Assembly: GCA_947476625.1 (NCBI GenBank)
Contig: CANJRA010000004.1
Span: 1 to 64,000 of the forward strand
DNA length: 64,000 nucleotides
Reading direction: 5' to 3'
Origin: Fidelibacterota bacterium
Lineage (GTDB): Bacteria > Pseudomonadota > Alphaproteobacteria > Rhodospirillales > Rhodospirillaceae
Part shown: positions 6,988 to 31,400 of the stretch, in pieces
Layout of the letters: each line of letters opens with the position of its first letter
How positions within the stretch are numbered: the stretch's first letter is position 1
The notes under the pieces: generated by a model
The model's database searches: none
Told to the model about the DNA's origin: nothing
What the model saw: only the letters and a program-made list of their open reading frames with translations
Translations under genes and position numbers: made by a program

Positions 6988-8799
6988 ATGTCTCATGAAA
7001 CACATTCGCCCGAAGCTATCGCCGCCTTGCTGAAAGCCGCGGTCGCGAACCATCGGGCGGGGGAAACCAAAGAAGCGGCCGCCCAATACAACGACCTCTT
7101 GGCCCGCGCGCCGGATCATCCCGAAGCTTTATATCTCTCAGGGTACCTTGCCTATCAGGGCGGTGCGCTGGACGAAGCGTTGGTCAAGCTCGAGCGTTCG
7201 CTGGCGTTGCGGCCCGGTCACATGCCCACGCTTGAAGCCCTCGGCGCTACGGCGTCTAAAGCCGGTAAATTTGAGCGGGCAGCCGAATGCTTCGCGGTCG
7301 TCGTTCAACATCAGCAAGATGCAACAACTTACTACCGGTTCGGATACGCGCTATTCCGGCTCGGCCGGTATGACGAGGCGCTAGACGCGTTCCGCAAAAC
7401 CCTCGCACTGAGTCCGCAGCATGGCGACGCCCTTTACATGCTGGCCACAATCTCACGCATCCAAGGGAAGTTGGCGCAAGCGGAGCCGTTATATGAACGG
7501 GCCATCGCAATTCAACCCAACAATACTTACGCCCTTGATGAATACGGCGGCGTTCTCTACGAACTCGACAAAATCGCCGCCGCGGACCCGATTATTCGCC
7601 GGGCCATTGCCGCCGCACCCCAACGCGCCAATCCCTATACCAACCTAGGGCGGCTTTATCAGACCGATCGCGCGCGCGCGGAAGAAGCCCTTGCGTTGCA
7701 TGACAAAGCGATTTCGCTCGCGCCCGACTATGGCGAGGCTCACAACAATCGCGGCGTAACGCTTTACACACTCGACCGATTAGATGAATCAATCGCGAGT
7801 TTCCGCCGGGCCATCGCGTTGAAGCCGGAGATGCCGGAATCCCATACCAACCTCGGCCATATTCTAATGATGAACGGGAACCTGGCCGAGGGCTGGACGG
7901 AATACGGATGGCGGTCGCTGTGCAAAGACGCGCCGTCGAAGCCGCGCCCGTTCACGCAGCCACGCTGGCAAGGCGAAGATCTGGGCGACGGAAAGTTATT
8001 GGTCTGGGGTGAGCAAGGCATCGGCGACGAAGTGCTTTACGGCTCTATGGCGGCCGATCTCGCGGAGCGTGGCGTGAATCTCGTTTGGGAATGCGACCCG
8101 CGTTTGGCGGAGATGGTACAACGATCCTATCCTGCGGTGACGGTCGTGGGACGAACAACACCGCCGCATCCATTGACCGCCGATGAAAATATTCTGGCAC
8201 AGATTTCGACCACCGACTTGGGACAGTATCTGCGCGCTTCTCTGGCGGCCTTTTCCAAGCGGCATGGTTATTTACGGGCCGATGCCGCACGCACGGCGGG
8301 TTATCGCGCGCGGCTGCTGCAAGGCGGCGGTAAACGGCGTGTGATTGGCATCTCTTGGAATAGTAAAAACCCCGATTTTAGCGCGTTGAAATCCAGCCAG
8401 CTTAAAGACTGGGCGTCGCTCTGGCAGGCGGCTGGACCCTCGACGCAATTCGTCGATCTGCAGTACGGCGACACCGCCGCCGAACGCGCTGCCGCCTTGG
8501 TCGATCTCGCACATCTGGACGACCTTGATCTCTATAACGATATCGACGGCGTCGCAGCGTTGATTGGCGCATGCGACTTGGTAATTACGGTTTCCAACTC
8601 AACCGCGCACCTCGCGGGCGCCACAGACATTCCGATGTATGTCATGGTGCCGGGCGGAACTGCACGGCTATGGTATTGGGGCGCGGGCGAAAGCGGTTCC
8701 CCGTGGTATCCGAAAGCGAAAGTATTCAAACAGCAGTCCGTGCACGATTGGAGCGCAATGATAGCCCGGATAGCCCGTCAACTGGCGGGGCCGTCGTGA
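6988..8799 (+). CDS. TPR protein with GT9-like glycosyltransferase domain (paralog 1)
   Basis: A 603-residue cytoplasmic protein. Residues 1-290 are a TPR array, a protein-binding solenoid. From about 300 there is a heptosyltransferase-like (GT9) GT-B domain with landmarks shared by all paralogs here: GWTEYGWR (302), WGEQGIGDE (340), FVDLQYGD, and the nucleotide-sugar motif SNSTAHLAG (536), equivalent to the DSxxxHLAAALG motif of WaaC/WaaF. TPR-fused transferases usually modify proteins, so I infer a protein glycosyltransferase with an NDP-heptose-type donor. The stop overlaps the GTG of the next paralog (GTGA). Confidence 0.82.
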   Translation: MSHETHSPEAIAALLKAAVANHRAGETKEAAAQYNDLLARAPDHPEALYLSGYLAYQGGALDEALVKLERSLALRPGHMPTLEALGATASKAGKFERAAECFAVVVQHQQDATTYYRFGYALFRLGRYDEALDAFRKTLALSPQHGDALYMLATISRIQGKLAQAEPLYERAIAIQPNNTYALDEYGGVLYELDKIAAADPIIRRAIAAAPQRANPYTNLGRLYQTDRARAEEALALHDKAISLAPDYGEAHNNRGVTLYTLDRLDESIASFRRAIALKPEMPESHTNLGHILMMNGNLAEGWTEYGWRSLCKDAPSKPRPFTQPRWQGEDLGDGKLLVWGEQGIGDEVLYGSMAADLAERGVNLVWECDPRLAEMVQRSYPAVTVVGRTTPPHPLTADENILAQISTTDLGQYLRASLAAFSKRHGYLRADAARTAGYRARLLQGGGKRRVIGISWNSKNPDFSALKSSQLKDWASLWQAAGPSTQFVDLQYGDTAAERAAALVDLAHLDDLDLYNDIDGVAALIGACDLVITVSNSTAHLAGATDIPMYVMVPGGTARLWYWGAGESGSPWYPKAKVFKQQSVHDWSAMIARIARQLAGPS

Positions 8800-10673
8800 G
8801 TACCTCTGCCGTTCAACAAAAGCTCGCGCAGGCCTTCGCTTTTCATAAAGCCGGCGAGGTTGCCAAGGCTGAACCGCTGTACCGCGAAATACTACAGGCG
8901 GAACCGAAGCACTTCGATGCCATGCATATGCTGGGCGTTGTCCACCTCCAAACCGGGCGCAATGATGAAGCCGTGCGGCTCATCACAAAGGCCGTGCGGC
9001 TCAATCCGTCGGCTGTAGTGCTGAACAATCAGGGCAACGCCCTGCAATCCTTAAATCGTTACGAAGATGCGCTCGCCAGCTACGATCAGGCGCTGGCGGC
9101 AAAACCAGATTACGACGAGGCCCGTAAGAACCGCGGCGCAGCACTTCAAGCGCTGCAACGCCATGAAGACGCATTGGCTGTCTTCAGCGAAATACTCTCG
9201 ACGCATGCCAACAATCCCGAGGTGCTCAACAATACCGGCGTCTCGCTTTTCGCTTTGGGGCGGTATGCCGATGCGCTGTCGAGCTGGGATAAAGCCCTGC
9301 GTTTGGCACCTGGTGTCGCGGCACTTTTTAATAATCGCGGCGATGCGTTGCGTCTGCTGGAACGTCCCGAAGAGGCCCTGGCCAGTTACGCGCAGGCTTT
9401 GGCAATTGATCCCGCCATGACTGAGGCCTTGCTCGGCAGCGGCGGGACACAACGTATTCTGCGGCGCTTCGACGACGCCTTGAAGACTTACGACCATATT
9501 TTGCGCGGCGACCCGAAGAACCTAGGGGCGCTGAGCAACAAGAGTGTCGTTCTGCGCGATCTGCTGCACTATGACGAAGCCCTTGTCTGTGTCGTGGCTG
9601 CGCTTGCGCTAAAACCCCATTATGTCGAAGCGCTCATTAATCGCGGCACGGTACTGCATGAAATGGGCCGCGATGATGCGGCGTTGGCAAGCTTCGACGC
9701 AGCCCTGAAATACGAGCCCGGCAACGCCGAGGCCCATTGGAATAAAGCGCTTTCATTGTTGAGCCTCGGCGATCTGGCGCGCGGCTGGACGGAATATGAA
9801 TGGCGCTGGCAGCGGCCCGGATTTAAATCCGCCGCGCGCGGTTTTACGCAGCCTCTTTGGCAGGGCGAAGAGCTCGACGGCGCGCTGCTGTTGTGGGGCG
9901 AACAGGGCGTGGGCGACGAACTGTTGTATGCCAGTATGGTCGGTGACCTTGTACAACGTGGCCTGCCGATTATCTGGGAAGCCGACAAACGGTTAGTGCC
10001 TTTATTTCAGCGATCATTGCCCCACACAAAGGTGATCGCGCGCATGACGCCGCCGGACCCGGTGACGGCCGACAAAATCATTCATGCACAGATTTCCAGC
10101 GCCAGCCTGGGACAGCACTTGCGCCGGACGGCAGCGGATTTTCCGGCGCGGTTGGGATATTTACGCGCCGACGAGACACGCGCGAAAGACTATCGCCAGC
10201 GGCTTCTGGGCGATAAAAAACGCCTCGTCGGCGTTTCCTGGGTCAGCAAGAACCCCGATTTCGGCGTTCATAAAAGCAGCCGCCTGAGCGATTGGGCACC
10301 TCTATGGCAGGCGGCCGGAGAACACACGCAGTTTGTCGATTTGCAATACGGCGATACCATTGCCGAACGTAACGCCGCTCCGGTCAGTCCGCATCACCTG
10401 GACGACCTTGATCTGTTCAACGACATCGACGGGCTGGCCGCGCTGATTGCCGCGTGCGATCTGGTGATCACGGTATCCAACACCACCGCGCATCTGGCGG
10501 GCGCGTTGGGTGTGCCGGTCTGGGTGCTGGTTCCGCCCGGCAACGGTAAACTCTGGTACTGGAACGATGCCGTCGACGCGCGGTGGTACAGCGCGGCGCG
10601 CGTGTTCAAGCAAGAGGCGGGTCGTGGCTGGCCGGGCGTTATAGGGCGTGTTGCGAGAGAGATGACCTCGTGA
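8796..10673 (+). CDS. TPR protein with GT9-like glycosyltransferase domain (paralog 2)
   Basis: A 625-residue relative of the preceding protein. TPR repeats fill about residues 1-325, then the GT9-like domain follows with GWTEYEWRW (330), WGEQGVGDE (368) and SNTTAHLAGALG (561). The start is GTG at 8796, overlapping the upstream stop as GTGA and preceded by GGCGGGG; frames reaching further upstream run inside the preceding gene. It is most similar to paralog 1 (both have DLDL-NDIDG and SKNPDF/NSKNPDF motifs), indicating a local tandem duplication. Translation is probably coupled to both neighbours. Acceptor and donor are unknown. Confidence 0.82.
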   Translation: MSTSAVQQKLAQAFAFHKAGEVAKAEPLYREILQAEPKHFDAMHMLGVVHLQTGRNDEAVRLITKAVRLNPSAVVLNNQGNALQSLNRYEDALASYDQALAAKPDYDEARKNRGAALQALQRHEDALAVFSEILSTHANNPEVLNNTGVSLFALGRYADALSSWDKALRLAPGVAALFNNRGDALRLLERPEEALASYAQALAIDPAMTEALLGSGGTQRILRRFDDALKTYDHILRGDPKNLGALSNKSVVLRDLLHYDEALVCVVAALALKPHYVEALINRGTVLHEMGRDDAALASFDAALKYEPGNAEAHWNKALSLLSLGDLARGWTEYEWRWQRPGFKSAARGFTQPLWQGEELDGALLLWGEQGVGDELLYASMVGDLVQRGLPIIWEADKRLVPLFQRSLPHTKVIARMTPPDPVTADKIIHAQISSASLGQHLRRTAADFPARLGYLRADETRAKDYRQRLLGDKKRLVGVSWVSKNPDFGVHKSSRLSDWAPLWQAAGEHTQFVDLQYGDTIAERNAAPVSPHHLDDLDLFNDIDGLAALIAACDLVITVSNTTAHLAGALGVPVWVLVPPGNGKLWYWNDAVDARWYSAARVFKQEAGRGWPGVIGRVAREMTS

Positions 10674-13594
10674 ATAATCCCAAGGTCACACGTCAATTAA
10701 GCGAGGCGGTCGCTTTTCATCAGAAGGGCGATGTTGAGAATGCCGAGAAATTGTATCGCACTATTCTAAAGCAAGCACCCCGGCATCCCGATGCCTTGCA
10801 CCTGTTAGGTCTTGCGCTGGAGGCGCGCGGCGCATTGGCGCAAGGCATCGCGACGGTACGCCAAGCATTGGCTGTGCAAAGCGCCTCTCCGGACGCGCAC
10901 TTTAATCTCGCGCGCATGTTGGCGACGACGGGCGATCTTGACGGTGCGAAAGCCCACTATGAACGCACCTTGGCGCAACAGCCCGGCCATGCCCCCGCAC
11001 ACAATGGCTTAGGTACATGGTACCGCGCGAAGCATGATTATCCTGAAGCGCGCGCGTCATTTGAGCGCGCGATCCGCTTTCAGCCGCGCCTGATGGATGC
11101 CTATGTCAATCTTTGCAATACCTGCCGGGATATGTGTGATGACGCAGGTCTTTTGCAGGCGGCAAACCGGGGATTAGCGATCGAGCCCAACAATGCGCAA
11201 CTGCACATTCTGCGTGCGGAGGCTTCGTTTGCGCGCGGCGCGCTGGCGGATGGATGGCGCGACTATGAATGGCGGTTTGCCTCAACCGACCGTCCCGTAG
11301 AAATTCACCGCTATCCCTTGCCGGTCTGGAAGGGCGAGGACATCAAGGACAAAAGCCTGCTGGTGTGGTGCGAGCAAGGCGTCGGCGACGAGATTCTCTA
11401 CGCCAATATGCTGAGCGGTGCGGTTCATCGCGCCAAGCGCGTTGTCTTGCATACGACGCCGCGCTTGGCGCCGCTGTTCGCGCGTTCTTTTCAGGACATA
11501 GACGTTCACGGCGGGACGGTGCCGGCCGATGTCATGAAAACGCTCCACGTACAATCGCCAATCGGCAGTCTCGGACAATGGATACGGCCGGACTTCGCGT
11601 CGTTTCCCACGCGCAGCGCCTATCTGAAAGCCGATCCGGCGCGGACGGAACGTTTGCGCGCGAAGCATGCCGCTGGGCGCGAGCGTTCGCTGATCGTGGG
11701 GCTATCGTGGCGCAGCGCCGGTGTGGTGAACAATCAAGCGGTGCATCACGCCGCCGAGAAGACCGTCGGCCTCAATCAATGGGGCGGAATCTTGGCCGTG
11801 CCCGGCGTGACATTCGTGAACTTGCAATACGGCGACACGGCCGCCGAGGTCGCGGCGGCGCGCCAGAATTTCGGAATCGATATCGTAACCGACACCGAGG
11901 TTAATTCGCTCTCCGATCTAGAAAGCTTTGCCGCGCAAGTAGCCGCCATGGACTTGGTGATTTCATCCAGCAATACCGCGGCGCATATGGCCGGTGCGTT
12001 GGGCGTGCCGACGTGGTGCATGGTGCCGCGCGCGCTGGGAAGTGGACGTCGGTGGTACTGGTTTGGCGACGGCGGTTATGCACCGTGGTACGCCGCCGTG
12101 CGTTTGTTCAGGCAAGCGCAGACCAACGTGTGGGCGCCGGTTCTGGCGGATATGGGGTTGGCGCTGGCGCAAGCGGCGGCGGCCGCTGGGGTGCTGATCC
12201 AACCGGCGGATTTTCTGATGAAGCTCGGCAAAGGTTATGCCGGCGCGTACCTCGTCGCAGCAGCCGAGACAGCATTCGAGCTGGCGGCAGCGTATGCGCC
12301 CTCGGGCGCATTGCTGGCGGAAGCCGCGCGACTGAAGGTTCAGCGCGGCGCAATTGAAGACGCGCTGCCGCTTTATAGACGCGCCCTACAACTGACGCCG
12401 GATCAGGCGGCGGTGCATCATAATTTCGGTACGGCTTTGCGGCGGCTGGGACAGAACACCGAAGCCTCGGAACACTATGCCGTCGCGCACACGCTACAGC
12501 CTGACCATCCCGCTATCTTGCTCAACCATGCGACGGCGCTGTTTGAAATAGACAAACTCGAGGAATCGCTCGCGGCCTTTGATCAGTTGATTGCGATGCA
12601 GCCGGATTTTGTTGATGCCCATTATAATCGTGCATCGGTGTTGATGGCGCTGGGCCGGTTCGACGAAGGCTGGCGCGCCTTCACCTGGCGATTGAAGCGC
12701 CAGCACGTCCACGTCCGCCACGAGGATTTTCCGCAGCCGGTATGGTCGGGTGAAGACTTGACCGATAAGCACGTTTTAGTTTGGACAGACCTAGGCTTAG
12801 GCGAGGAAATTCTGTTGGGCAGCATCGTGCCTGACGTCGCGGCGAAAGCGCGGCATGTAACGCTGCTGTGTTCGGAGCGACTTGTCGCTTTGTTCCGCGC
12901 ATCGTTTCCCGGCGTGACGGTCGAGACGCGCAAATTCCCGCTGCCGGCGGTGGCTACATCGAAAGACATAGATCTTCAAATGTCCCTGGTCGAACTTGGC
13001 ATGTTGTTCCGGCGCAGCTTTGACGACTTTCCTGCGCGCCAACATTATCTCTCGGTGGATGCCAAGCAACGCGACGCCTTGCGCCGTAAGTATCTCACGG
13101 GTCGAGAAGGCGATCTGCTGGTCGGGTTATCCTGGCGCAGCGTCAACCCGGAGATCGGCGGTCAAAAAAGCGTACCGCTAGAGCAGTGGCTGCCGATCTT
13201 GAAAACGCCAGGCGTTACTTTCGTGAACCTGCAGTACGGCGATTGCCGGGAAGAGCTGGAGGCGTTGCAGCGGGCACACGGCATCGACATCGTTAACGAC
13301 ACCAGTATCAATATGTTGGGCGACATGGCGCCGGTGGCGACACAAGTAGCCGCCATGGACAAGGTTATTTCGGTCAGCAATACGACTGTTCATCTGACCG
13401 GCGCGACAGGCGTTCAGGTGCAGGCATTGTTGCCCAAGGGTCATGCCCGGCTGTGGTACTGGTTCCGGGGCCGGACACGGGCGCCATGGTACCCAAGCGC
13501 CCAATTGCTGACATCGGTTCAGGAGGGCGACTGGGGCCAATTAATCGCGCTGTGCGCGGCTGATTTAAAGGCAGTGGTTGAGAAACGGCCCTGA
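10670..13594 (+). CDS. Double-unit TPR-GT9 protein (two TPR arrays, two catalytic domains)
   Basis: A 974-residue protein with two complete TPR-GT9 units in tandem. Unit 1 has TPRs at about 5-185 and a transferase at 190-505 (GWRDYEWRF 194, CEQGVGDE 233, SNTAAHMAG 433). Unit 2 has TPRs at about 520-660 and a transferase at 665-970 (GWRAFTWRL 667, DLGLGEE 707, SNTTVHLTG 903). In unit 2 the GEQGxGDE loop is changed to TDLGLGEE, so one domain may differ in donor or be regulatory. The GTG start at 10670 overlaps the previous stop as GTGA. I read it as a fusion of two neighbouring paralogs, useful for adding sugars in sequence, though function is inferred. Confidence 0.82.
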   Translation: MNNPKVTRQLSEAVAFHQKGDVENAEKLYRTILKQAPRHPDALHLLGLALEARGALAQGIATVRQALAVQSASPDAHFNLARMLATTGDLDGAKAHYERTLAQQPGHAPAHNGLGTWYRAKHDYPEARASFERAIRFQPRLMDAYVNLCNTCRDMCDDAGLLQAANRGLAIEPNNAQLHILRAEASFARGALADGWRDYEWRFASTDRPVEIHRYPLPVWKGEDIKDKSLLVWCEQGVGDEILYANMLSGAVHRAKRVVLHTTPRLAPLFARSFQDIDVHGGTVPADVMKTLHVQSPIGSLGQWIRPDFASFPTRSAYLKADPARTERLRAKHAAGRERSLIVGLSWRSAGVVNNQAVHHAAEKTVGLNQWGGILAVPGVTFVNLQYGDTAAEVAAARQNFGIDIVTDTEVNSLSDLESFAAQVAAMDLVISSSNTAAHMAGALGVPTWCMVPRALGSGRRWYWFGDGGYAPWYAAVRLFRQAQTNVWAPVLADMGLALAQAAAAAGVLIQPADFLMKLGKGYAGAYLVAAAETAFELAAAYAPSGALLAEAARLKVQRGAIEDALPLYRRALQLTPDQAAVHHNFGTALRRLGQNTEASEHYAVAHTLQPDHPAILLNHATALFEIDKLEESLAAFDQLIAMQPDFVDAHYNRASVLMALGRFDEGWRAFTWRLKRQHVHVRHEDFPQPVWSGEDLTDKHVLVWTDLGLGEEILLGSIVPDVAAKARHVTLLCSERLVALFRASFPGVTVETRKFPLPAVATSKDIDLQMSLVELGMLFRRSFDDFPARQHYLSVDAKQRDALRRKYLTGREGDLLVGLSWRSVNPEIGGQKSVPLEQWLPILKTPGVTFVNLQYGDCREELEALQRAHGIDIVNDTSINMLGDMAPVATQVAAMDKVISVSNTTVHLTGATGVQVQALLPKGHARLWYWFRGRTRAPWYPSAQLLTSVQEGDWGQLIALCAADLKAVVEKRP

Positions 13595-13613
13595 GGTCGG
13601 CTATAGAGGAACG

Positions 13614-14288
13614 ATGATTAAAGTCTTCATTGGCTACGATTCTCACGAAACCGTCGCGTTCCATGTGCTGGCGCACAGCATTCATGTGCGCGCATCCGCG
13701 CCGATAACGGTTGCGCCGCTGATGTTATCGCAGCTGACAAAGCTATTTACCCGCGTGCGCAATAACATTCAGTCGACGGATTTCTCGTTCTCGCGGTTTC
13801 TGGTGCCGTATCTATCGGGCTATGAAGGCTGGAGCATGTTCTGCGATTGCGACATGCTGATGCTGGACGATATCGCCAAGCTTTGGGCGTTGCGTGACGA
13901 TAGATTTGCGGTGCAGGTCGTCAAACACAATCATGTGCCGTGCGAGGACATTAAGTTCCTTAACCAGCCGCAAAGCAAATACGAGAAAAAGAACTGGTCG
14001 AGCGTGATTTTGTTCAACAACGCCAAATGTACCGCGCTGACACCTGATTACGTTAATTCCGCGACGGGCCTGCAGCTCCATCAATTCAAATGGCTAGGCG
14101 ATGACGGACTGATCGGGGAAATTCCGCACCGTTGGAATCATCTGGTGGATTTTGACCCGGCCAAACCATTGTCGGAGCTGTCGCTGATTCATTTCACCGA
14201 GGGCGGGCCGTATTTAGAGAATTACGAGAATTGTGGCTATGCGGATTTATGGTTCCGCGAGCGTGATGTAATGCTGTCGGCGGGTTAG
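13614..14288 (+). CDS. GT-A type glycosyltransferase (GT8-like)
   Basis: A 224-residue protein starting MIKVFIGYDSHE, typical of small GT-A transferases that use nucleotide sugars. The metal-binding DxD is visible as CDCDMLMLDD near residue 80. The ATG at 13614 has an AGAGGAA site just upstream; the open frame extends to 13578 without support. It follows the TPR-GT9 trio by 19 bases and probably belongs to the same transcript as gspE and the three TPR-GT9 genes. A role in extending the glycan begun by those enzymes is inference. Its stop overlaps the convergent gene's stop. Confidence 0.8.
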   Translation: MIKVFIGYDSHETVAFHVLAHSIHVRASAPITVAPLMLSQLTKLFTRVRNNIQSTDFSFSRFLVPYLSGYEGWSMFCDCDMLMLDDIAKLWALRDDRFAVQVVKHNHVPCEDIKFLNQPQSKYEKKNWSSVILFNNAKCTALTPDYVNSATGLQLHQFKWLGDDGLIGEIPHRWNHLVDFDPAKPLSELSLIHFTEGGPYLENYENCGYADLWFRERDVMLSAG

Positions 14289-17121: not shown

Positions 17122-17123
17122 GG

Positions 17124-22103: not shown

Positions 22104-22581
22104 TGTTGCCTTCGCCGCCGGCTTTGCCGTCGGCGCCAAAACTGTAGAGGGTAATCGTTGAATCTGTGGCGGGTGCGTAAACATAGGAGTTTCCCCAAGG
22201 GTCGAGCGGCACGTCTTCGGAAAGATAGGGGCCGTGCCAGCGCCGCGCCAAGCGCTCATCCCCCGGCGCGGTATTCAGAAGTTCCGGACCCTCTTCCTTC
22301 GTGGGAAAGCGGCCGATATCGAGGCGCATAGTTTCCAACGACGTTTTCAGCATGCGTACCTGCGTGGAAGCGGCGGAGACTTTGGACGTGTCAACGCGGC
22401 CTAAAAGCTGAGGCCCGACCAAACCGGCGAGCAAACCCATGATCACGAGAACAACTAGCATTTCGAGCAGGGTGAAGCCAGTTTCATTCTTTTTCCGCTC
22501 AGTGTGCAAAGAAGCAAACACAGATAATTTGCGGTTAGCCACAAAAAGCGTAAGTCGATTTTGGTGTTTCATCTGAGACAT
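22060..22581 (-). CDS. gspG: Type II secretion major pseudopilin GspG
   Basis: The major pseudopilin, about 173 residues. The leader is longer than usual (about 33 residues) before ETGFTLLEMLVVLVIMGLLA. The soluble domain has the family pattern: GRFPTKEEG, WHGPYLSEDVPLDPWGN, and a final Gly/Asp-rich loop (FGADGKAGGEGNNAD) forming the calcium site typical of GspG. I chose ATG 22581, just after the gspF stop, with AGGG next to it; ATG 22572 is an alternative giving a slightly shorter leader. The polymer of this protein is the pseudopilus that pushes substrate through GspD. Confidence 0.92.
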   Translation of the reverse strand: MSQMKHQNRLTLFVANRKLSVFASLHTERKKNETGFTLLEMLVVLVIMGLLAGLVGPQLLGRVDTSKVSAASTQVRMLKTSLETMRLDIGRFPTKEEGPELLNTAPGDERLARRWHGPYLSEDVPLDPWGNSYVYAPATDSTITLYSFGADGKAGGEGNNADVGFLPKTQTQP

Positions 22582-22585
22582 AGCC

Positions 22586-23794
22586 CTACAATGCAACCTG
22601 ATTGATGCTGGTAATCGCGAGCATGATGGCCGCGACAATGCCTCCAACGACTATGCCGATGAAGAGTATCGCCGCCGGCTCCAGGAGGATCAGGAAGCGT
22701 TTCATGCGCTGACGACCTGAGTCGTCATATAGCTTGGCCAAAGACCGCAACATTTCATCGATATGACCGGATTCCTCGCCCACTTGAACGAGGCTGATAG
22801 CGGTATCATTAAAGGCCCGCTGTTCGGCCATAGCGGCTGAAAGGGATTTACCTGCCCGCACCATTTTGCTGACCTGATCAAGGCGTGTGCGCAAGCTGGG
22901 CAAGGAGATCGTATCGCGCGACAGATCGAGGGCTTTTGTCATTTCGACGCCATTGGCGAACATGGTTCCCAACATGAACGCCCAGCGTGCCAAGTCGGAT
23001 TCAAGCAGCCACGCGCCGAGTATCGGCATTTTCGCGGCGCGTTCGCGCAGCGCGGACATGAACTTCTTGTTACCCAATGCCCAAACGATGAGGGCGACGA
23101 TGGCAGCGGCGCCGATAAACACCAGCATGCGGTTCGCATTGAGGAACATTCCGGTATTGAGAACAACGGTCGATATCCAGGGCAAAGGCGACTTAGCCTG
23201 GGCGAGCATCGCTGAAAACCGCGGGACCACGACGATAAAAATGAAAATCACAGCAGTGAAGCCGGCACCGATCAGTACAGCCGGATAGGTCAGGGCATTG
23301 CGGATATCTTGGCGAATTTGGTGTTCGTAGGACATCTGCGTGACGGCATCCGCTAAGGCCTCACCCAGGCGACCGATGGCTTCGCCGGCGGCGGCCAACT
23401 GGGTCACATAGGACGGCAACATGGGCAGGGAAATGGGCAGCGAGTTGGTAAAGCCCTGTCCGCTGCGTAGGCGGCGCTCTAGATCGGCAAAACCGCTGGA
23501 GATGACCGGATGCAGCTTTTGCTGCTTCAAGGTCTCGATGGCACGAATCATCGGTACGCCTGAGGTCAGAAGGAGCGACAGCTGCTTGAGGGACAGGAGG
23601 ATTTCCTGAGTCTGCGGCGGCCGTTGAAAGAATTGCCGCGAGCGCACGGCGGGCTTGGATGGAAACACCAGCAGCGGCGCCAGCCCTTGCGCCTCAATAG
23701 CGCGTAACGCATGGCGTTCGCTCACAGCCACAACGCTGCCCTTGACGACGTGGCCGCCGATATCGAGAGCCTGATAGTCGAAGCTGTTAACCAT
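22586..23794 (-). CDS. gspF: Type II secretion inner-membrane platform protein GspF
   Basis: A 402-residue polytopic platform protein that contacts GspE. It contains two T2SSF domains, about 70-195 and 270-395, each ending in a hydrophobic segment (LIGAGFTAVIFIFIVVVPRF; ILFIGIVVGGIVAAIMLAI), plus a third helix pair in between. Motifs such as LLTSGVPMIRAIE and FANGVEMTKALDL are typical of GspF/PilC. It is the first gene of the minus-strand operon gspF-G-H-I-J-TPR-GT9. The promoter must lie in 23795-23930. Confidence 0.92.
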   Translation of the reverse strand: MVNSFDYQALDIGGHVVKGSVVAVSERHALRAIEAQGLAPLLVFPSKPAVRSRQFFQRPPQTQEILLSLKQLSLLLTSGVPMIRAIETLKQQKLHPVISSGFADLERRLRSGQGFTNSLPISLPMLPSYVTQLAAAGEAIGRLGEALADAVTQMSYEHQIRQDIRNALTYPAVLIGAGFTAVIFIFIVVVPRFSAMLAQAKSPLPWISTVVLNTGMFLNANRMLVFIGAAAIVALIVWALGNKKFMSALRERAAKMPILGAWLLESDLARWAFMLGTMFANGVEMTKALDLSRDTISLPSLRTRLDQVSKMVRAGKSLSAAMAEQRAFNDTAISLVQVGEESGHIDEMLRSLAKLYDDSGRQRMKRFLILLEPAAILFIGIVVGGIVAAIMLAITSINQVAL

Positions 23795-23992: not shown

Positions 23993-25492
23993 TTATGGCG
24001 CGACCGTGCCTGAGCCATTGCGGAAGCCGGATTGATCGGTGAGCACACCGCTAATTGAGTTCCACACAACAGACTGGCCGTAGCCAGTGAACATAGTCGT
24101 CACATCGACACGGTACCCCGTATTGACGCTACCGCCGATAGCAGCTTCGAGTTCAGGAACGCTGATCATGAAGGTTGAGCCGGCCGGTACAACACCACCA
24201 GCCCCGAGGCGACCAGAAGCTATGGCAGCTGTCAAAGCGGAACTTACAACAGTAGAGCCGACCTTAACGCCAGTCACGTCGTTGTAGACATTGAATGTCG
24301 CAGTGCCTGCGATGCCGGAAGAGTTAGTAACCCGGATGAACGCTAGGTATTGGCTGCCCATAGCGCTCGGCAGAACCGAGTTGAAAGAAGTACTTAAACC
24401 ACCAGTCGAGATATGAGCCAAGTTGCCGGAAATCGAGACGGCACTGAAGGTCGGCGCTTCTGCAGTATTGGTGACAACAGCAGTGGCCGTTCCACTGGTG
24501 GTGTCGACAACCTTCGTACCATTGAACCTCACACTCACAACCGCATTATTTAAGCTTGAAGCCTCGATACTGAAAGTGACCGATCCGCTGACAACTACAG
24601 AACTGAGGAAGGAGGTACCGGCGACATTGAGGGACGCGAACGCGTCGTCAGATAAGACACCGTGAGTGATTTTAACTTCAGTTGTAGAAACCAATGAGCC
24701 AGCGAACAACACATGCGAAAGATCGGCAGCCATGGCGTTTGAAGTTGAATAGTTGATCGTGCCCAAGTCGACGGCGGACGAGGTGCTGTTTCCGGTGTAG
24801 GCCGGAGTAACGGTGGCGCTGATTGTCAGGCCAGTCGTCGCCGCGACGATGCTCGCCGTTTTCACCGCGCTCCGGCTGGTGATAAAAGCCGCCGGAGTGA
24901 TGGTATCGATAATAGAACCCGCGGAGTCCTTCAACGAACCGCCGAGCTCGATCGAAGTGCCCGCAACAGCCAGACCAGCTGCGCCGCTGAACGACAGACC
25001 GATGATGCCAATAGCATCAACAGACGATGCGCTGCCGGTTGTAGCGCAGCCACTAATAATAATCTTGGTGGAGGTCGGCTGAACCGTGCAACCGGACAGT
25101 GTCGCGCCACCAGCCACTGTATTGCTAGTATCAAGGTCATAGCCAACAACAATGGGGTTCGCCCCAGCAAACGTGGCGTTGCCGCTCGTGATGTCGAGGT
25201 CGACGCGGAATGGGTTAATTACAACTGGGAAGGTAAAAGCTACCAATAAACTATTATTTGCCGTGCTTGGGGTCCCGGTGCCGTTAGCAGCGACCGCACT
25301 ACTTCCGATGACGAGCGCGGCGTCGGCAGCAGCGGTACTACCGAATACTTCGGTAGCTAAAGGGCGAGCAGCCAGTGCTGTTGTTGCGGCGGCACCGGAG
25401 TAAGATTTCAACGTTGCGCCTTGGCTGATGCTCGTCAGCGCTGTCGAAGCAAGCAACGCGCCGCTCATCAAGTAAAGTGATTGTTTATTCAT
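23993..25492 (-). CDS. Exported Ser/Thr/Ala-rich protein, candidate surface layer or major T2SS substrate
   Basis: A 499-residue protein that I do not recognise by family. It begins with a Sec signal peptide (basic MNKQ, hydrophobic core, likely cut after SISQG near residue 25). The mature part is dominated by Ser, Thr, Ala, Gly and Val with very few charged residues, only two close Cys (LSGC, ISGC), and alternating beta-type segments, as in S-layer, adhesin or fibre proteins. An AAGGGG ribosome site lies 9 bases before the ATG. It has its own candidate promoter and a strong terminator and sits between the T2SS blocks and two TPR-GT9 genes, so it may be the abundant, glycosylated cargo of this locus. 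That role is inference. Confidence 0.72.
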   Translation of the reverse strand: MNKQSLYLMSGALLASTALTSISQGATLKSYSGAAATTALAARPLATEVFGSTAAADAALVIGSSAVAANGTGTPSTANNSLLVAFTFPVVINPFRVDLDITSGNATFAGANPIVVGYDLDTSNTVAGGATLSGCTVQPTSTKIIISGCATTGSASSVDAIGIIGLSFSGAAGLAVAGTSIELGGSLKDSAGSIIDTITPAAFITSRSAVKTASIVAATTGLTISATVTPAYTGNSTSSAVDLGTINYSTSNAMAADLSHVLFAGSLVSTTEVKITHGVLSDDAFASLNVAGTSFLSSVVVSGSVTFSIEASSLNNAVVSVRFNGTKVVDTTSGTATAVVTNTAEAPTFSAVSISGNLAHISTGGLSTSFNSVLPSAMGSQYLAFIRVTNSSGIAGTATFNVYNDVTGVKVGSTVVSSALTAAIASGRLGAGGVVPAGSTFMISVPELEAAIGGSVNTGYRVDVTTMFTGYGQSVVWNSISGVLTDQSGFRNGSGTVAP

Positions 25493-25754: not shown

Positions 25755-27680
25755 TCAAGGCTTGGCTTGGTGACGGCAATTATGCGCAACATCTGAAATA
25801 ACCTCTTTCCACCAAGGTCTTGGCGCATTTCCAGGCGCCCGCGCTGCGCGGAATATGCGCACAGATGGATACCAGGGGCTGTCGGTCCGGTTTTGCATCC
25901 AGTACCATAAGCCGGTTGGTTCGCCCGAAAGCATGAGCCAGGTCGGGACATTTAGGCTACCAGCCACGTGTACCGCTGTGTTCGACGTACTTATGACAAG
26001 GTCCATCGCCGCTACCTGGGCGCAAAAGTCGTCCATGTTACGCAGGGCATCGACCTCGGGATCCTGGAATATCTCGATACCTGTTTCGCGTTTGACGGCG
26101 GCGAGTTCTTCAGAACAGTCGCCGTATTGAAGATTGACGAACGTGATGCCCGGAACATTTAAAATCTCAGTCCACAGAGCAATATCTGCGCTTTTATTCG
26201 CGCCGTTTTCCGCACGTGTGCTGCGCCACGCCACACCGACAATGAGGTTGCCAGGCGCGCGCGCTGTATAGCACGCGCGCAGGAGCGCCGTTCGCGCGGG
26301 ATCGGCCTCTAGATATCCGTGATGACGCGGGAAACTGCCAATCGTTGGCCGCAGGAACTGACCGAGGCTTGCGGCTGAGATTTGGTAATCCACACCCGCC
26401 GCCGGGGTCGCTGGTTGGCCCGGCACCATGAAAGGCACAACCCCCGCACGCGGAAACGAACGCGCAAAGATGGGTGCCATACGGACTGAGCATTCCACTG
26501 TGCAATGTCCGGCCAGCGCAACGATGTCGGGGATTATGCTCGCGTACATAATCTCGTCGCCAACCCCCTGCTCAGTCCACACGACAATGTTTTTCGCCGT
26601 CAGGTCTTCGCCGCGCCAATATGCCGGCGGGGTCGCGCGGCGGCACGCATCATCCATTTTGTGCAAGCGATGGTCATAGTTCCTCCAGCCGTCCTTTAAA
26701 TTTCCACTGCCCAACTGGACTATGGAGAGTTTAAAGAGCAAATTCGACGATTGCGGTTCAAGTACGAGCGCCTGAAGAAGAGTTGCGATAGCGTCGTCAA
26801 AAAGCGCTTGATGTTCGTAGACTTTGGCGAGAGCTTCGTACGCCTCAATGAGTTGCGGATTGCTAGCGATGGCGCGCTGAAAGATGTCGCGGGCTTTGTT
26901 CAGACGTCCAGCTGCATGCAGCGCCGCACCATAGTTGTGCAGTATGCCGGCGTCATGAGGCATGATTGCCAAGGCCGCACGGTGCGCGGCGAGTGCGGCA
27001 TCCAAGTCCCCCGCGCGACGATACAATTCGCCAAGATTGCTGTGATATTTCGGGTCCGGCCTTAGACCAATGGCTTCGCGCGTATGATGAATGGCTTCGG
27101 CGACATGATTACCGCGGGTATATAACGCCGCCAGAGACACATGTGCATCGAGATAGCCCGGGTTCAAATCTAGCGCTCGCTTGAAACTCGCTTCGGCTTC
27201 GCTGTTCTGTGCAAGCCGCGCGAGACTTTGACCGAGATTGTAGGGCACACGGGCGTCTTTTGGTGTGAGGACTATCAGCCTTCGAAAGCAATCAACGGCT
27301 TTATCGGTCCGACCCACCCTGTCCAGCGTTACGCCCATATTCAGCAGCGTTGCGGCGTGATGAGGCGCCAGCTTTAATGCATGCGCATACGCTGCTAAAG
27401 CGGCATCAGTTTGGTTTGCAGATAACAGCAGATTCCCGAGGTTAAACCGATAGTCAGGCTCTGCGGGATCACCTTTGATCGCGCGTTCATAAAACGATTT
27501 GGCATGCGCAACCTCGCCGCGACTTTGCGCGATCACGCCCATAAGATTTAACGCATTAGCGTTGCGCGCATCAACTTTCAAAACTTTGGTATATAAATTT
27601 TCGGCTTTATCCAGACGCCCATTTTGATGATGTGCGACGGCCTCCTGCAGTATTTTGACAATGTTTGAAGGCGTGCTCAC
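25755..27680 (-). CDS. TPR protein with GT9-like glycosyltransferase domain (paralog 6)
   Basis: A 641-residue protein: TPR array over residues 5-325, then the GT9-like domain with GWRNYDHRL (330), WTEQGVGDE (367), FVNLQYGDCSEEL and SNTAVHVAGSLNVPTW (565). It starts with GTG at 27680, overlapping the stop of the upstream paralog as GTGA, so the two are translated together. It lies directly upstream of the exported Ser/Thr-rich protein gene on the same strand, 262 bases away. That adjacency makes it and its partner the best candidates to glycosylate that protein. Confidence 0.82.
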   Translation of the reverse strand: MSTPSNIVKILQEAVAHHQNGRLDKAENLYTKVLKVDARNANALNLMGVIAQSRGEVAHAKSFYERAIKGDPAEPDYRFNLGNLLLSANQTDAALAAYAHALKLAPHHAATLLNMGVTLDRVGRTDKAVDCFRRLIVLTPKDARVPYNLGQSLARLAQNSEAEASFKRALDLNPGYLDAHVSLAALYTRGNHVAEAIHHTREAIGLRPDPKYHSNLGELYRRAGDLDAALAAHRAALAIMPHDAGILHNYGAALHAAGRLNKARDIFQRAIASNPQLIEAYEALAKVYEHQALFDDAIATLLQALVLEPQSSNLLFKLSIVQLGSGNLKDGWRNYDHRLHKMDDACRRATPPAYWRGEDLTAKNIVVWTEQGVGDEIMYASIIPDIVALAGHCTVECSVRMAPIFARSFPRAGVVPFMVPGQPATPAAGVDYQISAASLGQFLRPTIGSFPRHHGYLEADPARTALLRACYTARAPGNLIVGVAWRSTRAENGANKSADIALWTEILNVPGITFVNLQYGDCSEELAAVKRETGIEIFQDPEVDALRNMDDFCAQVAAMDLVISTSNTAVHVAGSLNVPTWLMLSGEPTGLWYWMQNRTDSPWYPSVRIFRAARAPGNAPRPWWKEVISDVAHNCRHQAKP

Positions 27681-29338
27681 ACTGCCTGCTTCACATCACG
27701 CGAAAATGCCTGGCCGATTTGAGATATGCCTTTACGCCACCAAGCGCCTCCTTCAGCCCTGCTGCGAAAAATGCGTATCGACGGATACCATGGACTGTCG
27801 GTGCGATCGACAAACCAATACCAGAGCAAACCAGGAGAGCCCACGTTAAGCAAAAGATACGTCCGCACATTGAGGCTGCCGGCAACGTGGGCCGTTGTGT
27901 TGGAGGTGGTAATAACCATATCCATGGCTGCAACCTGAGCGAAAAAGTCATCCATGTTTCTTAGAGGATCAATTTCCGGATCATGAATGACATCCACACC
28001 CAAGGCTTGACGCACCGCCTTTAAGTCGGCCGCGCAGTCGCCGTATTGAAGATTGACGAAGGTTGCCCCCGGCACAGTCAACACTTCTGGCCAATCAAGA
28101 AGTCGCGCCGTTTTATCTTCGCCCGGAAGACCAACCTTTTTACTTCTCCACGATAAGCCGACAAGAAGATTGCCCGGGGCCACAGATTGGTAGCGCGCGC
28201 GCAACGCCGAGGCGCGAGCCGGATCTGCTTTAAGTAGGGCACCCTTACTGGGAAACCTATCAAACGTGGGCCGGAGATATTGGCCCAGGCTTGCAATCGA
28301 TATTTGGGTATCGATCACTTCGGGGGAAGTGATTCTCTGGTCAATCTTCTTGCGCCCGACGACTTTGATTTGAGGGAATGAGCGTGCGAAAATCGGCACC
28401 ATACGCGGTGAGCACTCGAGAATGCAGCGACCAGCTCGTGCAGCTATTTCTGGCACCATACTTCCGTATAGAATTTCATCGCCGAGACCCTGTTCCGTCC
28501 ATAACAAGATTGTCTTGCCGGCCAGATCTTCACCACTCCAGTAAGCTGGCGGCGCCGGATAGCGCGGCACGCGCTCTTCGTCGGCAAGGAAACGACTTTC
28601 ATAGTCTGACCAGCCGACATCAAGCTTTCCTAAACGTAAAGCTATCAGCGAACGCTTGAACCTCAATTCACCCGGCTGCGGCTCAAGCGCGATCGCCTTA
28701 TCCATCAGCGCAAGCGCATCGGCGTGGCGTGCGCGATCAACATAGACCGCAGCAAGGTTGCCGTAAGCGCGCGCCATCTGCGGCGCGAGCCGTATGGCCT
28801 CTTCGTAGGCCGCCGCCGCTTTATCACCCTCAAGCGCATGTTTGTGAGCATTTCCTATACCGAGATAGGCCGCGGCGTCGGACGGCATCAACGCGAGACT
28901 GGCTTCGAAGCAAGCGATTGCCTGCGGGTACTCTTTCATGTCGGTGAGCAGCTTTCCGAGATTGAAGTGTGCTATCGCTAGGTTAGGTTTGAGTTTGAGT
29001 GCGGCTTTGTAGGCATCGCGCGCATCGTCTTGTCGTCTGGCTTCCTGATAAGCCGAGCCGAGATTCACCAGTATCGTGGAATCACGCGGATCTTTACGAG
29101 CCGCACGCTTGAGCAGGCGAATGCTTTCGTCAAAAGCGCCTGACTGGAGTGCAACCACTCCCAGCATATGCAGCGCGTCGACGTTGTTGATGTCTAAGGT
29201 CAATACATGCCGGTAGCAGTTCTCGGCCAGCGCAAGTTGCCCGCGATTATGATATGACCTGCCCATCTGCAAGGCTTGCGCAATAGATGCGGCCTTTTGC
29301 GATGATGCCTGGGTGGGGAGGTGAACCTTGCGAAACAT
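27677..29338 (-). CDS. TPR protein with GT9-like glycosyltransferase domain (paralog 7)
   Basis: A 553-residue protein with TPRs over about 20-240 and a GT9-like domain with GWSDYESRF (242), WTEQGLGDEILYGS (280), FVNLQYGDC and SNTTAHVAGSLNV (477). The ATG at 29338 is supported by GAGAG upstream. It is the tandem partner of paralog 6 (shared motifs such as WTEQG, DALRNMDDF/DPLRNMDDF and WYWM/WYWF). It is divergently transcribed from paralog 8 across a 154-base intergenic region that probably carries both promoters. Confidence 0.82.
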   Translation of the reverse strand: MFRKVHLPTQASSQKAASIAQALQMGRSYHNRGQLALAENCYRHVLTLDINNVDALHMLGVVALQSGAFDESIRLLKRAARKDPRDSTILVNLGSAYQEARRQDDARDAYKAALKLKPNLAIAHFNLGKLLTDMKEYPQAIACFEASLALMPSDAAAYLGIGNAHKHALEGDKAAAAYEEAIRLAPQMARAYGNLAAVYVDRARHADALALMDKAIALEPQPGELRFKRSLIALRLGKLDVGWSDYESRFLADEERVPRYPAPPAYWSGEDLAGKTILLWTEQGLGDEILYGSMVPEIAARAGRCILECSPRMVPIFARSFPQIKVVGRKKIDQRITSPEVIDTQISIASLGQYLRPTFDRFPSKGALLKADPARASALRARYQSVAPGNLLVGLSWRSKKVGLPGEDKTARLLDWPEVLTVPGATFVNLQYGDCAADLKAVRQALGVDVIHDPEIDPLRNMDDFFAQVAAMDMVITTSNTTAHVAGSLNVRTYLLLNVGSPGLLWYWFVDRTDSPWYPSIRIFRSRAEGGAWWRKGISQIGQAFSRDVKQAV

Positions 29339-29492: not shown

Positions 29493-31400
29493 ATGGCTAA
29501 GACTTCGACTATTTTTATGGCAGCGTTCGCGGCCCACGGCGCGGGCCGCTTCGCGGAGGCCGAGCAGGGCTATCGCGCGGTTTTAAAGGCCGAGCCGAAA
29601 CATGCGGACGCGTGGCATCTTTTGGGCGTTAGTGCCCACCAGCAAGGTCGCCCGGCCGAAGCCGCGGATTATATTCGCAAAGCTTTGAAATTTGCTGGTC
29701 CGAAGGGCGCCTATCTCACCAATTTAGGCGCATCGCTTCAGGCCTTGGGGCGCAGTCCGGAGGCACTCACCGCCCTGGAACAAGCCGTTACATTAGACCC
29801 CTCTTTTCCCGCGCACTTCGCGCTGGGAAATATATTGCGAATTCTAGGTCGCCTTGACGAAGCCCTGGCCCGCTATGAGAGGGCCCTGGCGCTGAAACCT
29901 ACCGAGCCGTCACTCCACAATAATATCGGGAATACTTATCAGGCGTTGGGACGCCTCAATGAGGCGGCCGCGAGTTATCGCAAGACAATTACTTATCAGC
30001 CGGGTCACGCCCGCGCGCACTACAATCTCGGGGTGGTTTCGAGGGACGGCGGCCAGCCCCTGGAGGCTATAGCGAGCCTACGTAAAGCGTTGGCGATCGT
30101 GCCCGATTTCGCCGAAGCCCACGTTAATTTGGGAGTTGTGCTGCACGATCAAGGACAAACAGAGGAAGCGCTTAGGCACATACGCCGCGCCATTGCGCTC
30201 AAGCCTGATGACGCCGCGGCCCATAACAATCTTGGCGCGATTTTGCGCGATCTGGGTCAATTCGATGAGGCTATGCAGAGTTACGATAGGGCGTTGGTTT
30301 TGCGGCCCAGTATGGCGGAAGTCCAACACAATCAAGGCGTCGCGCTTCAAGCCGTGGGACGGGATGACGAAGCTTTAGCGCGCTATCAACAGGCTCAAGG
30401 CGCCAAGCCGGAATTCGCAGATGCCAAACTCAACATCGCGCTTTTGACCTTGATGACGGGTAATTTCGAAACCGGCTGGGAAGCCTATGAATGCCGGTGG
30501 CGCCGCGACGTGCCAGGCTTAGGCTTGCGTCATTTTCCTTACCCGCAGTGGCAGGGTGAGGACGGCGGTGCTGTGCTGGTCTGGGGAGAGCAGGGCGTAG
30601 GAGATAGGGTGCTTTATGCCAGCATGATTCCAGACCTGCTAGCACGCGGACACAGCGTCGTGATGGAGACAAACCCCAGATTGATAAAGCTTTTTGAGCG
30701 TTCCTTTCCCGGCATTCAGGCCGTCGCGAAACAAGAGCCCCCTCACGATGCGACACAACGGCCCGACATTCGATGGCAAAGCGCCTTTGCCAGCTTGGGC
30801 CGGTGGCTACGACCCGACCTCGCAAGTTTCCCCGCACGCGACGCTTATTTGGTGGCTGACGACGCGCGGCAGCAGCATTACCGCGCGCAACTTGAAACCA
30901 ATCACGTTGGCCCGATCATCGGCATTTCCTGGATCAGTCGGGCCGTGAAGATCGGCCCACACAAGACCGCCCACTTAAAACAATGGGCACACGTCCTGCA
31001 AATACCGGGCGTGCGCTTCGTTGATTTACAATACGGCGAGACCGCTGATGAACGCGCCGACATTGAAGCCGAATTGGGTGTGAGAATCGAACACGTGCCT
31101 GACCTCGATTTGCACGAGGATATCGACGGCGTTGCCGCCCTAGCAGCAGCTTGCGATTTTATCATCTCGGTGAGCAATACGACCGCGCACCTTTCAGCTG
31201 CTCTGGGACGGCCGACATACGTGCTGGTTCCCGCCTCCGCTGGCAATTTGTGGTACTGGATGCGGGGTCATCAAACGCCCTGGTACCCCACTGCAACGAT
31301 ATTACGGCAATCGAAGCTCGGGCATTGGGATGATGTCATGGAGCAACTTCGCGCCGCACTAGCCATGAACGTGTCTGGGCCGTTACAGAGAATTAACTAA
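29493..31400 (+). CDS. TPR protein with GT9-like glycosyltransferase domain (paralog 8, head of the gspK-D block)
   Basis: A 635-residue protein: TPRs over 5-320, then GWEAYECRW (328), WGEQGVGDRVLYAS (365), FVDLQYGE and SNTTAHLSAALG (560). The ATG has GGAAG 5 bases upstream. It is nearly collinear with the minus-strand paralog at 14.3-16.4 kb, sharing for example HAREAHYNLG-type repeats, VVMET and LRED/LHEDIDGVAALAAACD, so one is a copy of the other. It is followed after 149 bases by gspK-L-M-C-D on the same strand. Confidence 0.82.
   Translation: MAKTSTIFMAAFAAHGAGRFAEAEQGYRAVLKAEPKHADAWHLLGVSAHQQGRPAEAADYIRKALKFAGPKGAYLTNLGASLQALGRSPEALTALEQAVTLDPSFPAHFALGNILRILGRLDEALARYERALALKPTEPSLHNNIGNTYQALGRLNEAAASYRKTITYQPGHARAHYNLGVVSRDGGQPLEAIASLRKALAIVPDFAEAHVNLGVVLHDQGQTEEALRHIRRAIALKPDDAAAHNNLGAILRDLGQFDEAMQSYDRALVLRPSMAEVQHNQGVALQAVGRDDEALARYQQAQGAKPEFADAKLNIALLTLMTGNFETGWEAYECRWRRDVPGLGLRHFPYPQWQGEDGGAVLVWGEQGVGDRVLYASMIPDLLARGHSVVMETNPRLIKLFERSFPGIQAVAKQEPPHDATQRPDIRWQSAFASLGRWLRPDLASFPARDAYLVADDARQQHYRAQLETNHVGPIIGISWISRAVKIGPHKTAHLKQWAHVLQIPGVRFVDLQYGETADERADIEAELGVRIEHVPDLDLHEDIDGVAALAAACDFIISVSNTTAHLSAALGRPTYVLVPASAGNLWYWMRGHQTPWYPTATILRQSKLGHWDDVMEQLRAALAMNVSGPLQRIN

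Follow-up and report, generated by a model that had tools for sequence, protein, structure and literature searches.

Bacteria are known to glycosylate autotransporters, two-partner adhesins and flagellins before exporting them. The locus described here lies in a 64-kb stretch of alphaproteobacterial DNA (the first 64,000 nucleotides of contig CANJRA010000004.1, hereafter the window), in which eight genes for tetratricopeptide-repeat (TPR) proteins with GT9-type glycosyltransferase domains, termed TPR-GT9 enzymes T1 to T8, are found amid the gsp genes of a type II secretion system (T2SS) and the gene for a serine- and threonine-rich protein, SubX. With moderate confidence, the locus is read as a dedicated export-and-glycosylation unit, in which SubX would be decorated by the TPR-GT9 enzymes in the cytoplasm and then exported by the co-encoded T2SS. 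If this is true, cargo-specific glycosylation would occur within a T2SS locus, where numerous position-specific enzymes would serve a single acceptor, and pre-export glycosylation would extend to a major outer-membrane route.

FlmG of Caulobacter crescentus is a soluble enzyme that acts before export, with N-terminal TPRs that bind its flagellin acceptor and a C-terminal GT-B-like domain, according to PMC7591256. The enzymes of the window are likened to it by architecture and context, as they also combine TPRs and a GT-B domain in one chain, are alphaproteobacterial and have relatives beside flagellin genes. Unlike FlmG, described there as one enzyme that acts on flagellin with pseudaminic acid and serves the flagellar route, they form a battery associated with a T2SS and a Ser/Thr-rich protein. 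TibC, a GT-B-like enzyme with similarity to WaaC and MurG, attaches heptose to serines of secreted proteins, using a conserved Asp base and a sugar-binding Lys; the paper does not use the term ‘GT9’ (PMC4358343). As described there, TibC and the BAHT enzymes have an N-terminal beta-barrel, an iron-finger, a dodecameric assembly and autotransporter acceptors, whereas the window enzymes begin with TPRs, as seen with Pfam in all eight and in a structural model of T7, and thus lack the BAHT beta-barrel. An earlier reading made from the letters alone (the sequence-only reading) took TPR-glycosyltransferase fusions acting on proteins as known but had not seen GT9 described in this role and expanded within a T2SS locus. 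This needs correcting in that TibC, as a WaaC-like GT-B enzyme acting on proteins, and FlmG, as a TPR and GT-B protein acting on flagellin, have both been described.

Genes for surface-layer (S-layer) proteins have been described beside T2SS clusters, namely those for Slr4 (PMC7821379), NpdA (PMC10765051) and the VapA protein of Aeromonas (cited there). SubX is likened to these by description, as a presumably secreted protein with a putative Sec signal whose gene stands beside a gsp cluster, and is set apart from Slr4 and NpdA in that no glycosyltransferase is mentioned in the accessible text of PMC7821379 or PMC10765051, where ‘glycosyl’ has no match. With FlmG, TibC and the linkage of S-layer genes to T2SS genes already described, each element of the locus has a precedent, whereas the combination and the cargo domain discussed below appear to be new. 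No paper joining these elements was found in the open-access collection searched, which omits most subscription journals, and a search there on S-layers together with a T2SS in alphaproteobacteria gave nothing. A bolder proposal, held tentatively and with slightly less than even confidence, is that the locus represents an undescribed self-contained pathway, consisting of a T2SS with its own tandem cargo domain, a hyperglycosylated coat protein and some seven to eleven TPR-GT9 units that are not interchangeable and that glycosylate this coat protein in the cytoplasm ahead of its export.

Locus layout and conservation

Eight open reading frames (ORFs) with long TPR arrays and a C-terminal catalytic domain interleave with gspE, gspJIHGF and gspKLMCD. 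T3 holds two catalytic domains, giving nine domains over eight genes, as the sequence-only reading had it; all of these ORFs are present and their TPRs exceed the Pfam cut-offs. The window accounts for nine of the 12 catalytic-domain matches of a profile search in the 2.6-Mb genome. The main components are as follows.

5168..6946, forward strand: GspE, the T2SS ATPase (T2SSE 453 bits; TIGR02533 562.9 bits, under the cut-off of 630); its true start is probably downstream of the first GTG
6988..8799, forward strand: TPR-GT9 enzyme T1 (TPRs by Pfam; glycosyltransferase domain in the catalytic-domain alignment)
8796..10673, forward strand: TPR-GT9 enzyme T2 (4-base overlap with T1; TPRs and glycosyltransferase domain)
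10670..13594, forward strand: TPR-GT9 enzyme T3, two TPR-glycosyltransferase units in one protein (TPRs, catalytic-domain alignment, tree)
13578..14288, forward strand: GT8x, a small putative GT-A-like glycosyltransferase (DxD-like motif read by eye)
14285..16366, reverse strand: TPR-GT9 enzyme T4 (Glu at the putative catalytic position)
18736..20538, reverse strand: TPR-GT9 enzyme T5 (Glu-type; overlaps the end of gspJ)
20456..21178, reverse strand: GspJ-like pseudopilin (N_methyl 20.1 bits, just under the cut-off of 21.2; position)
21073..21591, reverse strand: GspI-like pseudopilin (N_methyl; position)
21570..22259, reverse strand: GspH-like pseudopilin (N_methyl; TIGR01708 under cut-off)
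22060..22647, reverse strand: GspG, the major pseudopilin (TIGR01710 161.6 bits, cut-off 88.85)
22586..23794, reverse strand: GspF, the inner-membrane platform protein (PF00482 150.8 bits; TIGR02120 245.8 bits, under cut-off)
23993..25492, reverse strand: SubX, Ser/Thr-rich with a signal-peptide-like start, candidate T2SS cargo and acceptor (27% Ser+Thr; adjoins gspF)
23996..24415, reverse strand: SubX-C, the C-terminal domain of SubX, candidate cargo or surface-attachment domain (alignment, distribution)
25755..27680, reverse strand: TPR-GT9 enzyme T6 (TPRs, catalytic-domain alignment, tree)
27677..29338, reverse strand: TPR-GT9 enzyme T7 (TPRs, catalytic-domain alignment; AlphaFold model)
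29493..31400, forward strand: TPR-GT9 enzyme T8 (TPRs, catalytic-domain alignment)
31478..32698, forward strand: GspK (PF03934 44 bits)
32553..33704, forward strand: GspL (position only, no Pfam match; syntenic in relatives)
33701..34342, forward strand: GspM (position only, no Pfam match; syntenic in relatives)
34339..34824, forward strand: GspC (position only, no Pfam match; syntenic in relatives)
34748..37009, forward strand: GspD, the secretin (Secretin 156 bits; TIGR02517 325 bits, under the cut-off of 351)

The secretion system is a T2SS, with GspD, GspE, GspF, GspG and GspH to GspK found together, GspH, GspI and GspJ being recognised by the N-methyl motif and position. GspG scores over the curated cut-off of its family model, the matches of GspE, GspF and GspD are strong yet under theirs, and GspL, GspM and GspC are assigned by position and size. 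The ORFs of T2 and T3 also have longer upstream starts. T8 had been placed 149 bases ahead of gspK, a spacing that fits a later gspK start, whereas the gap to the longest gspK ORF is 77 bases. ARAGORN calls a tRNA-Thr at 15961-16042, on the opposite strand inside the coding sequence of T4, which is probably a false positive.

Conservation of the arrangement was followed in 61 genomes, the window's own and 60 others from its genus, family and order. Matching catalytic domains occur in 54 of them at E <= 1e-10, with up to 21 per genome. Regions around 44 of the 51 GspF matches were taken, with SubX scored as an ORF of at least 150 residues. On raw counts, a TPR-GT9 gene is found within about 10 kb at 19 of 20 SubX loci and at one of 24 loci without such a SubX (Fisher 2.7e-10, uncorrected for shared descent). 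The 150-residue minimum hid two SubX fragments at contig edges (G020:C17 and G012:C17), and once these loci are assigned to the SubX type the counts become 20/22 SubX loci against 0/22 other GspF loci. The first figure is likely to be 21/22, as the remainder of the G012 SubX is found at the end of contig C105, with TPR-GT9 matches on that contig starting at base 3330. A general coupling of T2SS and TPR-GT9 genes is ruled out by the other GspF loci, which lack TPR-GT9. The sequence-only reading was to be abandoned if such genes failed to accompany gsp genes elsewhere or if the domains scored best to a family outside the glycosyltransferases; neither proved to be the case.

SubX adjoins gspF in all 22 SubX loci (13/13 and a further 9/9). 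Two layouts exist, the window type with strand changes and another all on one strand in the order gspE, TPR-GT9s, GT8x, TPR-GT9s, SubX, gspF-J and gspK-D (G002, G003, and G004 as far as its contig goes). As the layout is kept in relatives, the arrangement of the window is not due to chance. In a second set of 71 loci on contigs of named genomes, drawn from the best 80 of a larger number of domain-profile matches, with several overlapping and many from the 61-genome set, a gsp gene was seen at 28 and SubX alone at one more. GT8x, which has no Pfam or NCBIfam match, is found in the array at 10 of 13 loci and is 71-83% identical in SubX-type loci. Relatives about 60% identical to it are carried on many rhizobial plasmids (Sinorhizobium, Paracoccus and others), some annotated as ‘glycosyltransferase’ and others as hypothetical; this common occurrence rules out that GT8x is exclusive to the system.

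The GT9-type catalytic domains

The nine domains of the window are 31-65% identical to one another and each of the eight proteins has many TPRs over the Pfam cut-offs. The motifs that the sequence-only reading had considered shared are so in part: LQYG and S[NS][ST]xxH are present in 9/9 domains, whereas LQYGD occurs in 6/9 and the EQGxGDE block varies, with DLGLGEE in T5 and the second domain of T3 (T3b), EQGLGER in T4 and EQGVGDR in T8. Pfam and NCBIfam scans of the catalytic domain were almost silent. With hmmscan, Pfam GT9 (PF01075) gave a weak match in which T5 was the sole window protein among the matches listed (18 bits, cut-off 22), and a genome scan for the same family gave 21 bits for T4 and 20 bits for T5. 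The AlphaFold model of T7 (pLDDT 92.3) shows a TPR superhelix and a GT-B-like domain, and its best whole-chain Foldseek matches are SPINDLY (SPY) and O-GlcNAc transferase (OGT), members of GT41 with the same architecture and a different catalytic-domain profile.

Since the family scans were near-silent and Foldseek was dominated by GT41 proteins, profile-profile comparison was used. The hhalign query was built from 170 catalytic domains, non-redundant at 60%, and was compared with 15 GT9 proteins and eight GT41 domains; L172, L160 and L161 had no frame of the expected length and were left out. The GT9 match reached 94.7% (E 5.8e-8) over 226 columns spanning both Rossmann lobes, and the GT41 match 1.8% (E 0.028). 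A companion run, the only one to include decoy profiles, gave 94.3% for GT9, 0.3% for GT41 and at most 8.1% for nine unrelated families from the same loci, with at least two of its 14 GT9 and at least two of its seven GT41 sequences taken from the wrong strand. By sequence profile the catalytic domains thus group with the GT9 heptosyltransferases and not with GT41, and a best family outside the glycosyltransferases was not borne out. In the companion alignment the EQGxGDE block pairs with TRIGDAVLS of GT9, and the SNTxAHxAGALGVP block with NDSGLAHLSAAVGSP. The Pfam GT9 cut-off is exceeded by another TPR glycosyltransferase of the same genome, on contig C30 (L150:1596-3269), which the window profile picks up as well. 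A sequence search of the Protein Data Bank with the catalytic-domain alignment gave weak matches only, one of them to lipopolysaccharide (LPS) heptosyltransferase II (E 0.16); a match to NAD synthetase (E 0.043) was judged to be due to chance.

Across 13 loci, the putative catalytic acid after the first strand (GxGD) is kept in 96/96 domains, as Asp in 79 and Glu in 17, a second-lobe Lys in 95/96 and a His in 96/96, the equivalence of these residues to those of WaaC being drawn from the profile alignment and not from superposition. Their retention gives no sign of dead copies among the 96 domains. In a tree of these domains, from which those under about 200 model columns were left out, grouping is mostly by locus position and not by genome. 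The T6-position and T7-position clades each contain all eight genomes of the window type, both halves of the double protein T3 form clades spanning both layouts, and joint clades unite T1 with T2 and T4 with T8. The nearest relative lies in the same genome for 4/96 domains, against 7.5 expected from shuffled labels. Such position-wise clades, together with the few nearest relatives from the same genome, indicate that the set is older than the split of these genomes and that its members have been kept separately. Separate upkeep of this kind would be expected if the enzymes differ in site or sugar, and the battery would provide naturally occurring TPR-guided protein glycosyltransferases that can be compared for site and sugar specificity.

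It is improbable that these enzymes instead build a surface polysaccharide or LPS, with the T2SS only a neighbour in a surface-structure island. Such a role would agree with the known GT9 enzymes, which are LPS heptosyltransferases, with the weak match to LPS heptosyltransferase II and with the nucleotide-sugar and methyltransferase genes downstream at 39009-49773. However, the interleaving is specific, as seen from the 0/22 other GspF loci once the contig-edge loci are assigned, the paralogues hold fixed positions across genomes, TPR arrays usually bind proteins and relatives of the enzymes sit at flagellin genes.

SubX and its C-terminal domain

SubX is a protein of 499 residues encoded between gspF and T6, a gene absent from the list of the sequence-only reading. 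An alignment of the window protein with 15 homologues reveals a signal-peptide-like start, a conserved C-terminus and a variable middle. The homologues are 28-44% identical to the window SubX, whereas GspF of such loci is 47-88% identical. Across 21 ORFs for SubX, some of them cut and with one gene or more counted twice, Ser+Thr content is 24-30% with a mean of 27.6%. It reaches at most 18.6% in the 483 further ORFs that have a match among the window genes, and the means for GspG, GspH, GspI and GspJ are 12-15%. SubX has no Pfam family at E <= 1. In profile searches of the order, 27 of 297 genomes had SubX or its C-terminal domain. All of them belong to the window's family, in which SubX spans six genera of this sample, and SubX was found in 0/384 other genomes of the class.

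SubX is the best candidate for both the T2SS cargo and the glycosylation acceptor. The secretion-coupled glycosylation put forward by the sequence-only reading is partly supported and stands as the best reading, with the gsp co-occurrence behind it, but SubX and not the pseudopilins is the likely acceptor, given 27.6% Ser+Thr against 12-15%. A role of the enzymes in modifying the pseudopilins or other parts of the T2SS apparatus is very improbable: T5 does overlap the gspJ end and T8 lies just ahead of gspK, but GspG, GspH, GspI, GspJ and GspK are of ordinary Ser/Thr content, whereas SubX is extreme and present in 22/22 loci.

S-layer proteins share a composition that is rich in S, T, A, G and V and poor in K, R and E. 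The composition of SubX is of the same kind, and this, the signal-peptide-like start and the T2SS linkage fit an S-layer protein; SubX is probably a main coat or S-layer-like surface protein. A pilus-like or matrix filament in place of an S-layer coat, for which the logic of glycosylation would be the same, is somewhat unlikely. It would agree with the all-beta model and with Foldseek matches to pilins and adhesins, which are weak and stand among many unrelated beta proteins, but the composition is one that is also seen in S-layers.

The C-terminal 110 or so residues of SubX (SubX-C) recur in the same genome as tandem pairs that end a subtilase and a trypsin-like protease. Examples of the tandem domain, usually C-terminal, are given below.

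G000:C7:7845-8561 (L145)
G000:C3:65394-66083 (L146)
L178-L197

No Pfam or NCBIfam model was found for the SubX-C part of these proteins. Of the 61 genomes, 25 have SubX-C, comprising all 23 with this T2SS and 2 of the remaining 38 (Fisher 8e-15, uncorrected for descent), with G010 counted among the 23 through gspJ, gspC, gspK, gspL and gspM, no SubX-type gspF having been found there. The two extra genomes, G017 and G018, are incomplete, belong to one genus and have no GspF match, leaving 0/36 for the remainder. Genomes with any SubX-C have 3-45 matches, and in each of 21 chosen proteins (from 20 stretches, some cut at an edge) the domain is present in two or four copies, whereas SubX has one. 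Nine of ten scanned SubX-C proteins had Pfam partners, comprising subtilase, reprolysin-like, virginiamycin-lyase-like propeller and BNR/sortilin repeat domains; such proteases and propellers are largely the kind of protein that a T2SS exports.

From its co-distribution with this T2SS, SubX-C is read as a cargo-recognition or surface-docking module of the system, an inference from distribution. T9SS C-terminal domains and the GlyGly-CTERM of T2SS substrates are likewise C-terminal modules common to diverse exported proteins and tied to one system. SubX-C is set apart from them by description, being about 110 residues long and usually duplicated, and with a role that is read from its distribution. 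No general T2SS signal is known, and the recurrent domain may bear on how a T2SS recognises its cargo. It is also possible, though again rather unlikely, that several cargos are glycosylated, through the shared SubX-C or as unfolded cargo generally, with SubX merely the most abundant. The 3-45 matches per genome would suit such a scheme, as would Ser+Thr contents of 15-22% in the 21 tandem-domain proteins and of 25% in the SubX-C region; however, SubX alone is encoded in the array, and the other listed domain proteins lie elsewhere, nearly all on other contigs.

For a dedicated unit centred on SubX, the following route may be envisaged. In the cytoplasm, newly made SubX still bearing its Sec signal would be bound by a fixed set of GT9-type GT-B enzymes through their TPR arrays, and nucleotide-activated sugars would be transferred to its Ser and Thr residues in O-linkage, each enzyme perhaps with its own site or sugar, with GT8x probably adding a sugar or extending one. 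Once glycosylated, SubX would cross the inner membrane by Sec, fold, and pass the outer membrane through the co-encoded GspC-M, to become probably the main coat or an S-layer-like protein at the surface. SubX-C would serve the same T2SS for cargo recognition or surface docking.

A number of points weigh against this reading. All of the co-occurrence evidence comes from one bacterial family, and as SubX is confined to that family within the sampled order, shared descent inflates every association. TPR-GT9 enzymes are found in many genomes without SubX, hence they are not specific to this system. At the SubX locus G035:C41 only one flank, of about 7.5 kb, is available and has no TPR-GT9 gene, the opposite flank being cut; the G035 genome nonetheless has 19 catalytic-domain matches. 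Some ORFs unmatched to window genes exceed 19% Ser+Thr, such as one of 275 residues at 30% (L127) and one of 238 residues at 27% (L116). The all-beta model of SubX is of low confidence (pLDDT 68.6), and its Foldseek search gave no convincing match, only weak ones to unrelated beta proteins. Further SubX-like matches are found away from the locus in G020 (G020:C10:126552-128015 and G020:C3:1578-2798). Lastly, a close relative of the HldE-like gene described below is present in only 6/61 genomes, or 6/23 of those with the system (at most 11/23).

Sugar genes and relatives of the enzymes

Two sugar genes lie within the array and two further genes follow gspD.

16387..17121, reverse strand: sugar-1-phosphate nucleotidyltransferase, HddC-like among others (PF00483 103 bits; NF049965 72.9 bits, far under the cut-off of 300)
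17124..18671, reverse strand: HldE-like protein (TIGR02198 193 bits and TIGR02199 68 bits, both under cut-off)
37042..37863, forward strand: Sel1-repeat protein (PF08238; after gspD here and in many relatives' loci)
38115..38726, reverse strand: GmhA-like sugar-phosphate isomerase (SIS_2 52.8 bits; TIGR00441 98.6 bits, under cut-off)

The HldE-like protein has a cytidylyltransferase-like domain followed by a PfkB kinase, the reverse of the order in the HldE model. Five other genomes of the 61, each of which has this T2SS, carry close full-length relatives (46-63%); in G020 the gene comes immediately after gspJ, and in G003 it is on the locus contig (G003:C8). In a further 14 genomes, five with this T2SS, the full-length relatives are more divergent (27-33%). 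The window genome itself has, on a different contig, a second and less similar match to the kinase part, which is probably the ordinary HldE. Some genomes have a GmhA-like gene after the locus. Heptose is a plausible donor in this strain, but as a general donor it was not upheld, the HldE-like gene being present in too few genomes with the system. The downstream island at 39009-49773 encodes an epimerase, a dehydratase, a DegT aminotransferase, a split transketolase pair, methyltransferases and an RmlD-like reductase. Transketolase N- and C-halves are encoded by separate genes, and an N-half is also found in one frame with an epimerase-like C-terminus (43736-45523 and 1347-2501).

Outside the family, TPR-GT9 enzymes are found without SubX. 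Among 190 genomes of the class, counting that of the window, 64 have them at E <= 1e-30. Surroundings were viewed for 12 of the 71 named loci and for 12 stretches from 11 other genomes, in which at least G118, G110 and G103 repeat L035, L022 and L053. Flagellin is recognised by Pfam near TPR-GT9 genes at L057 (with FlbT), L069, L199 and L208, while FliD is encoded at L035, on the same contig as L198 and L199, and a protein of the flagellar hook/rod type at L053. At L198/L199 (G118:C32; also L035), from another order, six ORFs match the TPR-GT9 profile, one of them short, beside FliD, flagellin and FlgK; this array is a parallel battery at a flagellin locus. By analogy, a flagellin-gene neighbourhood is as would be expected for FlmG-like protein O-glycosyltransferases. 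Ser/Thr-rich neighbours at L022 and L044 have no Pfam family, and the remaining surroundings viewed gave no nameable acceptor. At L059:8578-12936 a protein of 1452 residues with 34% Ser+Thr and a repetitive start is encoded about 4 kb from a TPR-GT9 gene. GT41 matches (SPY/OGT-like) are also very abundant in 19 genomes of the genus, that of the window among them, with 7-31 rows each, of which one protein may give two; the lineage thus has two families of TPR glycosyltransferases in large numbers.

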